DNA from: Rhodanobacteraceae bacterium
Lineage (GTDB): Bacteria > Pseudomonadota > Gammaproteobacteria > Xanthomonadales > Rhodanobacteraceae
Length of the DNA stretch: 36,895 nucleotides
Assembly (NCBI GenBank): GCA_003142815.1
Contig: PLNP01000009.1
Coordinates: 1 to 36,895, forward strand
Direction of reading: 5' to 3'
The notes below the pieces were generated by a model. That model was not told where the DNA came from, did not search any database, and worked only from the letters and a program-made list of their open reading frames with translations. A program made the translations under genes and the position numbers. Shown in pieces: positions 21,755 through 25,528 of this stretch. Every line of letters starts with the position of its first letter. Within the stretch, counting starts at the first letter, position 1.

Positions 21755-22777
21755 TCAGCCTTTGAAGTCGGTCTTCCAGTAGTTCTCGATGCGGTCAACC
21801 AGAGGTTTCGGCAGCGGTACGTAGTCGAGCGACTCCGCTTGCTGCTGACCATGCTCGAACGACCACTTGAAGAACTCGAAGGTAGCCTTGGCGTGCTCAG
21901 CGTTCCTTGCCGTCTTGTAAAGAATCGCCCACGTCGTCGCGGTAATCGGCCATGCGTCCGGGCCCGGAGCATTGGTCATGATCAGGTTGAAATCTTTGGC
22001 GCTCTGCCAGTCTGCGGTCGCGGCGGCAGCGGCGAAGGCGGCGGCGGTCGGGCGCAGGAATTTACCGGCCGCGTTCTGCATCTGCGTATAGGTCATCTTG
22101 TTCTGCAGCGCATACGCATATTCGACGTAGCCGATCGCGTTCTTGGTCTGGTTGACGAACGCCGAAACGCCCTCGTTACCTTTGCCGCCGATTCCAACTG
22201 GCCACGGCACAGACGTGCCGAAGCTGACCTTTTCCTTCCACTGTGGATTGATCTTGGCCAGATAGTTGCTGAAATTGTAGGTCGTGCCTGAGCCGTCGGA
22301 ACGATGCACAACCGTGATCATCGCGTCTGGCAGCGTGATGCCGGGGTTGATCTGGACGATCGCCGCGTCATTCCACTTGGTTACTTTGCCGAGAAAGATG
22401 TCGCCCAGTAGCGGGCCGGTCAACTTCAACTCGCCCGGCTTGACACCCTCTACGTGGACGACCGGAACGATGCCGCCGATCACGACGGGGAATTGGCCCA
22501 AACCGGCCTTGTTCAAGTCATCTTCGCTGAGCGGCGCATCCGAGGCACCGAAATCGACGGTTGCCGCCTTGATCTGCGCGATGCCGCCGCCCGATCCGAT
22601 CGACTGATAGTTGATGCGGTTTCCGGTCTTCGCCGCGTAGGTAGCTGACCATTTGGACAGAACCGGGTACACGAACGTCGAACCGGCGCCCGTGATATCG
22701 ACCGCGTGGGCTGAGGTCGCGCCGATCAGACTCGCTAAGACCAATCCAGCGAGTAGCGCTTTCGCCGCATTGAACAT
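21755..22777 (-). CDS. pstS: phosphate-binding periplasmic protein PstS
   Basis: PstS is the periplasmic phosphate-binding part of the Pst ABC transporter. The 340-residue product has a signal peptide ending SAHA (about residue 25) before VDITGAGSTFVYPVLSKW. Phosphate ligands are in the GAGSTF, IGSGGGIAQI, DFGASDAPL and RSDGSGTTYNF segments, all as in E. coli PstS. Later landmarks: VPWPVGIGGKGNEGVSAFV, IGYVEYAYALQNKMTY, DAWPITATTWAILYK and LDYVPLPKPLV. AAGGGGG precedes the ATG at 22777; the longer frame adds a non-family leader. pstC, pstA and pstB do not follow, since dapB ends just downstream on the other strand. A TATAAA at 22813-22818 may be the -10; no convincing Pho box precedes it directly. 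Confidence 0.96.
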   Translation of the reverse strand: MFNAAKALLAGLVLASLIGATSAHAVDITGAGSTFVYPVLSKWSATYAAKTGNRINYQSIGSGGGIAQIKAATVDFGASDAPLSEDDLNKAGLGQFPVVIGGIVPVVHVEGVKPGELKLTGPLLGDIFLGKVTKWNDAAIVQINPGITLPDAMITVVHRSDGSGTTYNFSNYLAKINPQWKEKVSFGTSVPWPVGIGGKGNEGVSAFVNQTKNAIGYVEYAYALQNKMTYTQMQNAAGKFLRPTAAAFAAAAATADWQSAKDFNLIMTNAPGPDAWPITATTWAILYKTARNAEHAKATFEFFKWSFEHGQQQAESLDYVPLPKPLVDRIENYWKTDFKG

Positions 22778-22986
22778 GTTGCCCCCTTGTGCAGGCGGAA
22801 TGCCTGTCACCTTTTATAGACCCGACAAGTTACAGAACGATGGACCATATGTTACGACCTGATTTGCGCCATACCTCAGCCAGCGAAAACGGGAACGTCG
22901 CGTAGTTTGCGCTCCGGCCATGCCGGACACCGAGCGACGGCGACGAGCAAGCGCGGCACCAGGGCGACGAGTCGGAAACGCCGATT

Positions 22987-23006
22987 GTCCCCACCAGGGG
23001 ATTGAT
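22987..23006. repeat. 20-bp insertion E in the transposase
   Basis: Read with the transposase: ATCAATCCCCTGGTGGGGAC, between CGATTT and AATCGGCG, splitting the codons for RF-NRRF. The inner palindrome is TCCCC-TGGT-GGGGA. Confidence 0.8.
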
Positions 23007-23114
23007 AAATCGCCAAGCCGCTTCAGCGAGATAGCGATGAGCGTACTTGAAGAACTTGAAGGCGTGGTACGTGCCATCGAGCGCGCGCTTGACGTTGCTG
23101 AGCACGATGTTGAT

Positions 23115-23134
23115 GTCAATCCCCTTCATGGGAC
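23115..23134. repeat. 20-bp insertion D in the transposase
   Basis: Plus strand GTCAATCCCCTTCATGGGAC. Opposite in orientation to copies A, B and E. It splits the codons for GARWV-N-IVLSNVK, where removal of 20 bases restores the frame. Confidence 0.8.
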
Positions 23135-23367
23135 CCAGCGAGCGCCGTCGGCTCCCGTGGCCTGGCGACCGCCGCCGGCATCGATCACGGTGTGCGCATG
23201 ATCGAGCGGAACCACGGCACGGAAGGCGCCGAGACCGTCGCTGAAGACCTCCGCTTGCGGGTGCAGGCGTCGCTGCGCCCACTCGGTCAGGGCGTGCAGC
23301 GTGAAGGCGGCGACCGGCTCGATGACCGCACACCCGGGACGACCGGCGTCGTCCGTTTCCACCGCGA

Positions 23368-23387
23368 TCCCAAGAAGGGGACTGATG
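23368..23387. repeat. 20-bp insertion A in the transposase
   Basis: Plus strand TCCCAAGAAGGGGACTGATG. It lies between the codons for SENKRPFM and IAVETDDAG. The exact ends are ambiguous by a few bases. Confidence 0.8.
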
Positions 23388-23457
23388 TCATGAACGGCCG
23401 CTTGTTCTCCGAACCGCGGCCGGCCTTGCCGCCGTTGCATTCGCCGCCCAGATACGT

Positions 23458-23477
23458 GTCCCAAAAAGGGGACTGAT
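23458..23477. repeat. 20-bp insertion B in the transposase
   Basis: Plus strand GTCCCAAAAAGGGGACTGAT. It splits VQIDD from TYLGGECNGG. In the transposase sense it is flanked by GAC on both sides, so a 17-base unit with a 3-base duplication is equally possible. Confidence 0.85.
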
Positions 23478-23612
23478 GTCGTCGATCTGGACGAAGCCGG
23501 TCAATTGGCGCGCTGTTTCACGCATCGTCATCGCCTGCATGATCTTGTGCTTCAAGCGCCACGCCGTGCGCGAATGCACGCCCAGATGCCGCGACAATTC
23601 GAGCCCAGAGAC

Positions 23613-23632
23613 ATCAGTCCCCTTCTTGGGAC
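23613..23632. repeat. 20-bp insertion C in the transposase
   Basis: Plus strand ATCAGTCCCCTTCTTGGGAC, opposite in orientation to copies A, B and E. It splits LTHTKTNV from SGLELSRHLG. In the transposase sense it is flanked by GTC on both sides. Confidence 0.85.
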
Positions 23633-24084
23633 GTTGGTTTTGGTGTGGGTGAGCACATACAGGGCGAGAAACCAGATCGTCAACGGCAAGCGGCTGTGTT
23701 CAAACAACGTGCCGATCGCAGACTGGTTTGATGCCGGCAGGCGCAGCACTGCCACAGCCATTCCTCGGCGCGCTGGAATCGGCTGTAGACCGTGGCCGCG
23801 CAGCGCGGACAGACGAAACCGCTCGGCCAGCGTGCCCGCAACAGCGCCTTCTCGCACGCCGCTTCCGTGCCGTACTGCTTCAAGAACGCCGGCAACGACG
23901 ACCGCAGGAAGTCCCCGTGGGACAGGCCGGGCTGAAACTGCACACGATTCGTCGCCATGATCCAAGTCTCCTGCGGATGCGTGGAGACGCAAAATGCTCG
24001 CCTGCTGTCTCATTCTTCGCGATGCTGGCTGAGATACGGCGCAAATCAGGTGTTACGAAGCGCAACACGCGCGACGCCCATGAA

Positions 24085-24208: not shown

Positions 24209-25528
24209 ATGCATTCAAAACTCATTGCGGTATCAGTGATGACCGCGCTCGGCGCAACCAGCTTAGGTGCGCATGCGGACGCCCTGAGCGATATCTTCAC
24301 CCAAGGCCATGTTGATGGCGAACTGCGAAGCTACTATTTCAGTCGTCTGTACGACACCGATACGGTGCCCGATGCCAATGCATTTTCCGCCGCTGCGCTC
24401 ATCAATGCGCGAAGCGGGACGTTCGGCGGAGGCTTCAGCCTCAATGGATCGTTCCTGACCGCAAACTCGCTGGGTACCCAGTCTTCGATCACATCGCATG
24501 TGGACACGACCTTGATGGGCCCCAGCAATTCGGTCAGCGCGCTCGGTCAGGCCAATCTGCAATACCAGAACAGCTGGGCGCTGGTCCGCGGCGGCTACCA
24601 ATATCTGAACACGCCATGGATGGGCATGAGCGACTCGCGGGTCTTGCCTGCTTCGTACAACGCGCTATCGGCCGATTTCAAACCTCTGAAAGGTTGGGAC
24701 ATCTACGCGATACGCAGCTTCGACTGGAAAAGCCGGACTTCGAACGGAGACTATTCGACCAATCTCTACTACCCATCAACGTTCGACGGTGACTCCATAT
24801 ACGGTGGCGTCGCTGCGCTGCCGGTGACTGCTCCTCAAGCCAATGGCGCCTTGGCGCTCGGCTCGACATACCAGCAAGGCGGCTTCAAGGGCCAAGCCTG
24901 GTACTACGACTTCCTTCGCTTCGCCAAGATGGGCTATGTCGATGGCAGTTACACTTGGAAAACCGGGACCGGTTTCGATCCATTTATTGCGGCCCAGTAT
25001 GTCCATGAATCGGGCGGTTCGGACAACACCTTTGTTCTGACGAACTCAAAATTGTTCGGAGTTGGCGGGACCTCCGTGCACAACCGGACTTGGGGGGTGG
25101 ACGGAGGCTTCGGATTTCCTAACGGCCGTTTCGACATCGGCTACAACAAGATCGCGGAACAGAGCGGTGCAGTCGGCGATGGCGCTTTGATCTCGCCATA
25201 TACCGCCGGTTATGCGACTGACCCTCTGTATACGACTTCGATGATCCGTGGCTTGGTGGAACAGGGTCCTGGTCACGCGTGGAGGGCCAAGCTCAGCTAT
25301 AGCTTCCTGCAGGGAAAGTTGTTGGTTGCGACCTCGTACGCGAAATATACAACCTTGTTGCGTGGCAACAGCGACAACATCTATTTCGATGTCACTTATT
25401 CGCTTGACAATTACCTGAAGGGCTTGTCATTGCGCGATCGCTGGGAGCGATCGAGCGGTGGTACCGGTTTGAACCCGGGCAACGAGGCCTTCACGTACAA
25501 CCGTGTGATGATCTCCTACAAATTTTGA
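24209..25528 (+). CDS. OprD-family outer membrane porin
   Basis: A 439-residue outer-membrane beta-barrel protein. The signal peptide MHSKLIAVSVMTALGATSLG ends at AHA (about residue 23). The mature protein begins DALSDIFTQGHVDGELRSYY, then FSRLYDTD, the first strand of OprD-type porins. FGGGFSLNGSFLTANSLGTQ, SALGQANLQYQNSWALVRGG and WRAKLSYSFLQGKLLVATSY alternate as barrel strands. The protein ends MISYKF with the C-terminal Phe that the BAM complex recognises. GGAGA lies about nine bases before the ATG at 24209; the longer open frame upstream crosses the IS end. OprD porins import basic amino acids or organic acids; the substrate here is unknown. Its position opposite pstS and a possible Pho box suggest phosphate-limited expression. 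Confidence 0.85.
   Translation: MHSKLIAVSVMTALGATSLGAHADALSDIFTQGHVDGELRSYYFSRLYDTDTVPDANAFSAAALINARSGTFGGGFSLNGSFLTANSLGTQSSITSHVDTTLMGPSNSVSALGQANLQYQNSWALVRGGYQYLNTPWMGMSDSRVLPASYNALSADFKPLKGWDIYAIRSFDWKSRTSNGDYSTNLYYPSTFDGDSIYGGVAALPVTAPQANGALALGSTYQQGGFKGQAWYYDFLRFAKMGYVDGSYTWKTGTGFDPFIAAQYVHESGGSDNTFVLTNSKLFGVGGTSVHNRTWGVDGGFGFPNGRFDIGYNKIAEQSGAVGDGALISPYTAGYATDPLYTTSMIRGLVEQGPGHAWRAKLSYSFLQGKLLVATSYAKYTTLLRGNSDNIYFDVTYSLDNYLKGLSLRDRWERSSGGTGLNPGNEAFTYNRVMISYKF

Follow-up and report, generated by a model that had tools for sequence, protein, structure and literature searches.

A REP-like hairpin micro-element concentrated in transposase genes of a Rhodanobacteraceae genome

A transposase gene of the IS1595 type in a Rhodanobacteraceae bacterium is interrupted by five insertions of exactly 20 nt, and related 20-mers occur elsewhere in the same genome. 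These inserts represent a real, well-defined, and unusual REP-like micro-element that is concentrated in transposase genes in this genome. The chances are about even that they belong to a family of hairpins moved as single-stranded DNA by an enzyme of the Y1/HUH type, with a short subtype that lands in insertion sequence (IS) genes.

The interrupted IS1595 transposase gene

The window, i.e. the whole analysed stretch of 36,895 nucleotides, contains an IS1595-type insertion sequence of 1193 bp (22858-24050), which was recognized from its terminal inverted repeats, from PF12762 matches in the pieces of its gene, and from its relatives. The terminal inverted repeats have a length of 28 nt and are 93% complementary. 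The element is bordered by a perfect 8-bp target-site duplication with the same letters, TGTTACGA, on the left (22850-22857) and on the right (24051-24058). Its transposase gene (22876-23958, minus strand) falls into six pieces, with the five 20-nt inserts and one other small frameshift. Neighbours of the insertion sequence are a phosphate-binding-protein-like gene (PF12849) and a porin-like gene, which span 21755-22810 and 24209-25528; the neighbour without a Pfam match looks like an outer-membrane porin by appearance.

Three of the inserts, A (22987-23006; ATCAATCCCCTGGTGGGGAC), C (23367-23386; ATCAGTCCCCTTCTTGGGAT), and D (23458-23477; ATCAGTCCCCTTTTTGGGAC), are oriented along the minus strand, and the other two, B (23115-23134; GTCAATCCCCTTCATGGGAC) and E (23613-23632; ATCAGTCCCCTTCTTGGGAC), along the plus strand. 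Inserts C, D, and E belong to subtype V1 and insert B to subtype V2, and insert E is identical to the consensus given in a preliminary description of this DNA. Matches to this consensus with up to three mismatches are found at five places in the window, all of them within the transposase gene, with none expected from 100 dinucleotide shuffles.

The inserts were also recovered by a frame-aware protein-to-DNA alignment against IS1595 proteins, for which a script blind to the motif was used. With the intact relative L085 as reference, this alignment revealed five nucleotide insertions, each of exactly 20, after residues 101, 145, 169, 249, and 284. Apart from these, there is a small frameshift close to residue 73, and close to residue 19 the gene is extended in frame by 24 nt. 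Seven IS1595 relatives are devoid of the five inserts. In six of them (L078, L084, L085, L086, L087, and L088) the whole frame is open, and in L082, also insert-free, the frame is read to the end with one stop. The observation of five extra 20-base segments in one transposase, three in one orientation and two in the other, is thereby confirmed. The preliminary description had regarded these copies as an inserted micro-palindrome and had named intact relatives with the 20-mers as normal coding sequence as evidence that would speak against this; the insert-free state of all seven relatives agrees with its view.

Short and long-tail copies in this and other genomes

Searched for over all 57 contigs (3.22 Mb) with up to three mismatches and a reversed control, the short 20-mer was found at 12 places, of which five are in the window and seven elsewhere in the genome, compared with none in the control. 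The earlier statement that the 20-mer has no other copy in 37 kb holds for the window, and the seven further copies lie in the rest of the genome. The copy at C19:199856 adjoins a PF12762 match, and those at C13:26519, C25:31617, C57:21, and C57:216 lie inside stretches that align with IS1595 proteins; the short C13 and C19 pieces alone have no Pfam match. Two further copies are located in an IS30-type gene (C25:32698) and an IS3-type gene (C25:8934), which were named via annotated relatives and have partial Pfam support. According to contexts read by eye, all 12 short copies lie in transposase genes or their relics, and these represent seven IS copies from IS1595, IS3, and IS30 if C57:21 and C57:216 are treated as one. 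Under an assumed IS share of 10% of the genome, the chance of finding seven out of seven in IS is 1e-7. The genome search that had been recommended for the 20-mer bears out the concentration in IS DNA, with 12 of 12 copies distributed over three families.

The IS1595 host of the copy at C57:21 has lost an internal part, and the copy lies where the two sides of the deletion meet, which would fit recombination between two copies. The end of contig C25 (L010, C25:29600-34308) and the start of contig C57 (L011) have the same 22 bases beside a 20-mer copy. Probably these contigs are neighbours, and in the IS1595 relic obtained by joining them an internal segment is missing at the place where the insert lies.

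Read with the tail first, the short copies form the variants NTCAG-TCCC.. (C, D, E, the IS3 copy, and C57:21), GTCAA-TCCC.. (B, C25:31617, and C57:216), and NNCCA-TCCC.. (C13, C19, and the IS30 copy), with copy A being intermediate among them. With copy E, C25:31617, and the IS30 copy as the reference strings V1, V2, and V3, respectively, there is one difference in B, C, D, and C57:216, there are two in the IS3 copy, C57:21, and C13, three in C19, and four in A. The short hairpins fold weakly, with energies of -4.5 to -8.9 kcal/mol (RNA parameters).

The preliminary description overlooked a long-tail subtype, one copy of which is in frame in the same gene. This copy (23900-23923, plus strand; GACCGCAGGAAGTCCCCGTGGGAC) is the in-frame extension in the early part of the transposase gene, where the long-tail form reads GACCGCAGGAA-GTCCC..GGGAC, and similar copies occur in the IS1595 5' fragments L020-L023. 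Two further IS1595 relics (C27:24018 and C25:34038) contain a long-tail insert of 26 nt, both at one codon junction. The short and the long-tail subtypes have the hairpin in common and are provisionally treated here as one family.

For the long-tail subtype, 41 genomes were searched with a 17-nt core, up to two mismatches, and a reversed control. There were 31 matches in the source genome (control 0), 41 in the relative G017 (control 1), and at most two in each of the other 39. As judged by eye, seven of the 31 copies in the source genome are in transposase genes, one is in a YD-repeat-like gene, 22 are in palindrome loops, and the copy at C34:29949 is unassigned. The palindromes that host the 22 copies are of the CTCCC..GGGAG type and are taken to be intergenic; both arms are unchanged in 17 of the 22. 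An IS256-type (Mutator) transposase at C12:34335 (L149, about 1036) includes a 27-nt copy in frame, with IY before it and TTNAIES after it, and at C5:58281 (L146, about 782) a YD-repeat type gene is interrupted by a 26-nt copy after a TAC codon. Short copies are more confined to transposase genes than long ones, with Fisher p = 3e-6 by copy and p = 2.7e-4 when short copies are counted once per IS copy, the copies being non-independent in both comparisons. In G017, nine long-tail copies were read in context, and all of them sit in loops of CCTCCCC..GGGGAGG-type palindromes, some with changed arms. That genome has the long-tail hairpin GACCGAAGGRAGTCCCC in high copy number (41 matches, e.g. in L114, L120, and L129).

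Beyond the source genome, the short form is rare. An exact search with the first two variants in 84,980 genomes, among which the source and near records are possibly absent, returned one locus, which belongs to Lysobacterales bacterium 63-13 (L041, 6262-6300). It consists of a tandem head-to-tail pair of 20-mers with a 20-nt period, around which no IS was discerned by eye. Among 398 sampled genomes of the order, the tailed pattern (one mismatch) was present in four, source included, with no other genome having more than one match, and the bare hairpin (exact) was present in ten, with only the source genome exceeding three matches. Context reading revealed no IS around the short copies of strain 63-13 (G282) and of G278, G021, and G014, the last being a weak one. 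The IS-borne short subtype has so far been seen in one genome.

In viral contigs, the two motif patterns matched nine and eight loci, which, judged from short contexts, are taken mostly for chance. A whole long-tail hairpin with GTCCCC..GGGGAC is present on the minus strand of a metagenomic viral contig (L158, near 6512). In a plasmid collection, 20 of 44 nt were matched in each of two records. A literature text search with four motif strings of the element found no paper, and word searches for hairpin elements concentrated in transposase genes surfaced no report at the level of search results.

Junctions, tags, and likeness to REP elements

Insert A lies between the codons for F and N (..AWRF/NRRF..), and this junction is common to the IS1595 copies of the window, C19, and C13; L085 has no insert there. 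In C19 and C13 the junction is exact, reading TTT-20 nt-AAC, with no target duplication, and at the junctions other than site A, one to three bases are assignable to either host or insert. Compared with L085, the C13 piece has 86% identity after the insert (36 residues) and 62% before it (29 residues), and the C19 piece has 53% after the insert (32 residues). For this common junction, repeated hits are favoured over the retention of an old insert. A target duplication of 2-3 nt is conceivable at D and E and is ruled out at site A by the exact junctions in C19 and C13. Insertion at codon boundaries, suggested by the position of A, B, D, and E between codons, was dropped, as only site A is exact once ambiguous bases are allowed; a codon-phase rule cannot be claimed because most junction phases are ambiguous. 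With a conservative reading of host residues, there is no need to assume a rotated element, in which the insert would be one frame of a sequence with a 20-nt period. A preference for hairpin loops within the IS was rejected, the target sites not being in predicted loops (mean percentile 0.57 for 10 sites).

As the tag, we took the 4 nt that precede the TCCC stem on its 5' side. These are TCAG, TCAA, or NCCA in the short copies and mostly GAAG in the long copies. The base just outside the 5' end of the insert was then tested for complementarity to tag base 4. It is complementary in 12 of 12 short copies, compared with three of 12 for the base one position further out and four of 12 on the other side; these are not 12 independent observations because copies within a subtype are related by descent and some flank bases are ambiguous. 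Complementarity is also present in five of six long copies, the miss having an altered stem start, and in 17 of the 22 long copies in palindrome loops. In our own reading of the same copies, the second base of the supposed cut dinucleotide does not obey the guide rule. The complementarity between tag and flank may be regarded as support, not as proof, for a single-strand mechanism like that of REP or IS200/IS605 elements. In a relative's palindrome with a similar hairpin (L166 of G333, near 1501), GTAG immediately precedes TCCCC; this hints at an origin of the GAAG tag from a GTAG-tagged REP.

REP elements are common bacterial repeats. As far as described in the accessible parts of PMC8266576, TnpA-REP cuts at a dinucleotide that the GTAG tag helps to select, which was demonstrated with changed tags for a REP of Marinomonas; by our reading of this account, the dinucleotide's first base depends on tag base 4. 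The same change of the cut site failed for REPs of E. coli and Stenotrophomonas (PMC8266576, same parts).

The element described here fits the REP architecture: it is a short palindrome in the range of 20-40 nt with an unpaired terminal tag, it occurs in many copies (12 of 20 nt and 31 of about 24-27 nt), and there are several variants per genome. The tag beside the stem with its guide-like rule also has a counterpart in REPs as portrayed in the sections of PMC8266576 at hand. However, the element departs from the described REP superfamilies in two defining traits, namely the tag, which is neither GTAG nor CGTC, and the RAYT with the identical repeat on its sides, as in a REPtron, of which none was found. 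The short subtype departs in a third, since REPs are mostly extragenic and 12 of 12 short copies are within transposase genes or relics. Intragenic REPs are known from the available text of PMC3733652, where many of them are reported in DNA synthesis and repair genes, at times two per gene, and two Xanthomonas species have copies in recB at nearly matching positions. That text stresses DNA synthesis and repair genes, whereas the short subtype occupies transposase genes; as for links between CGTC repeats and other transposase genes, the text notes no more than a few, which it regards as fortuitous.

Of the likeness to REP/RAYT systems that had been proposed for the 20-mers, the architecture stands, i.e. 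a hairpin with a tag, no duplication at exact junctions, and complementarity between tag and flank, and a RAYT that owns the element is not supported. The recommended search for a RAYT (Y1) gene in the source genome gave five Y1 matches at four loci, four of them above the cut-off, and two of them within reading frames that are open for 426 and 268 codons and look like RAYTs. The element is absent from the flanks of the Y1 genes at all four loci (L054, L055, L057, and L058), each of which has its own repeat family (GGGGTCAGAG.., GGGTCAGAGAACATATCC.., GTAGGCCGG.., and GTAGGGTGGGC..). In G017, the single Y1 match is below the family cut-off, and its flanking repeats differ from the element. No enzyme belonging to the element was found among the Y1 genes examined in these two genomes.

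In the single-strand transposition of the IS200/IS605 family, insertion takes place without duplication, which is also the case at the exact site A junctions. Hairpins are a further likeness, and for IS608 a guide tetranucleotide 5' of the palindrome selects the cut site (PMC8266576). In contrast, the element described here is a single 20-nt hairpin with neither left and right ends nor a gene. Rickettsia palindromic elements resemble it as palindromes within coding genes, as outlined in the accessible text of PMC3733652, and one long-tail copy is in frame. They differ in that the 20-mers shift the frame and have transposase genes as hosts.

Possible origins and meaning of the inserts

In the reading as a mobile single-stranded hairpin family, the element consists of a 5' tail ending in the 4-nt tag and a short hairpin with a TCCC..GGGA core, the short form measuring 20 nt and the long-tail form about 24-27 nt. 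Movement as single-stranded DNA, cut and joined in trans by a Y1/HUH-type enzyme similar to TnpA-REP or to those of IS200/IS605, is the most likely course. The tag would act as a guide that pairs with the base beside the cut and helps to choose the site, and the element would be joined in without target duplication. The short subtype, with its at least three tail variants, which may have spread in separate waves, went into IS genes, five times into one IS1595 copy, whose transposase is thereby disrupted. The hits in IS genes may be due to IS DNA being single-stranded while moving or to bursts within an IS-dense region. It is possible but doubtful that a guide-tagged micro-element preferentially enters transposase genes, as a parasite of insertion sequences or as a defence against them. 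In this reading, short targets would be picked by the tag, and the five hits in one IS1595 copy together with the common codon junction in unlike IS1595 copies would reflect real targeting of mobile DNA, perhaps because moving IS DNA becomes single-stranded. The few short copies of other genomes, around which no IS was seen, speak against IS targeting as an inherent property of the element.

The bias could also reflect survivorship instead of targeting, if insertion occurred anywhere and selection purged the copies in host genes but spared the ones in IS relics. Every host of a short copy is an IS gene or relic and mostly degraded, long-tail copies are found outside IS, and no IS was seen around short copies of other genomes. 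However, in this genome intergenic DNA, where survival would be expected, is free of short copies as well, with 12 of 12 in IS and the long subtype mostly in palindrome loops. Moreover, the window IS has five inserts but one other frameshift and a perfect target-site duplication, so that the inserts seem to arise faster than ordinary decay, and survivorship appears rather unlikely. A host process that disarms transposases by writing a fixed 20-nt hairpin into their genes would account for the presence of every short copy (12 of 12) in a transposase gene from one of three IS families, with five in one gene, and for the one codon junction hit in three unlike IS1595 copies. We know of no dedicated host system of this kind. 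Considering that the long-tail subtype is mostly outside genes and also present in a YD-repeat gene, and that none of the other genomes among the 398 of the order has more than one match to the tailed pattern, such a process is quite unlikely.

Short palindromic scars with no clear function are left behind by transposons, and the 20-mers look like such footprints, as if a larger transposon had visited the IS genes and been excised. Yet their tails and stems are conserved variants and not variable scars, a tandem pair exists in strain 63-13, and long-tail relatives occupy palindrome loops, all of which makes an origin by excision very unlikely. In yeast mitochondria, where short bypassing elements (byps) are scattered in coding genes, and in gene 60 of phage T4, inserts are skipped by the ribosome. 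Programmed bypassing of the 20-mers, by which the transposase would still be made, had been considered a weak alternative on the grounds that two of the copies were flanked by the same codon on both sides. The same triplet at both ends is found in D, E, and C57:21, and matching take-off and landing codons are, by our own reading, absent in A, B, C, C13, C19, and the IS3 and IS30 copies. The pieces of the gene are otherwise open apart from one frameshift, which would suit bypassing, but this additional frameshift itself and the presence of inserts in both orientations argue against it, and skipping is highly improbable here. An artefact of assembly or sequencing might be suspected in an assembly of 57 contigs with a contig break at one copy (end of C25 and start of C57). 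The copies, however, differ in sequence at equal length, are spread over five contigs, have homologues in other genomes, and show sharp junctions against relatives, which renders an artefact extremely improbable.

The dissemination of REPs is called poorly understood in the available part of PMC8266576. The 12 countable insertions reported here lie in genes with known relatives and thus permit a direct reading of insertion rules, i.e. of length, absence of duplication, and pairing between tag and flank. The short subtype is biased toward IS genes and seems to be related, in an unusual form, to the REP repeats already known. If its concentration in transposase genes reflected targeting, one mobile DNA would be silencing others.
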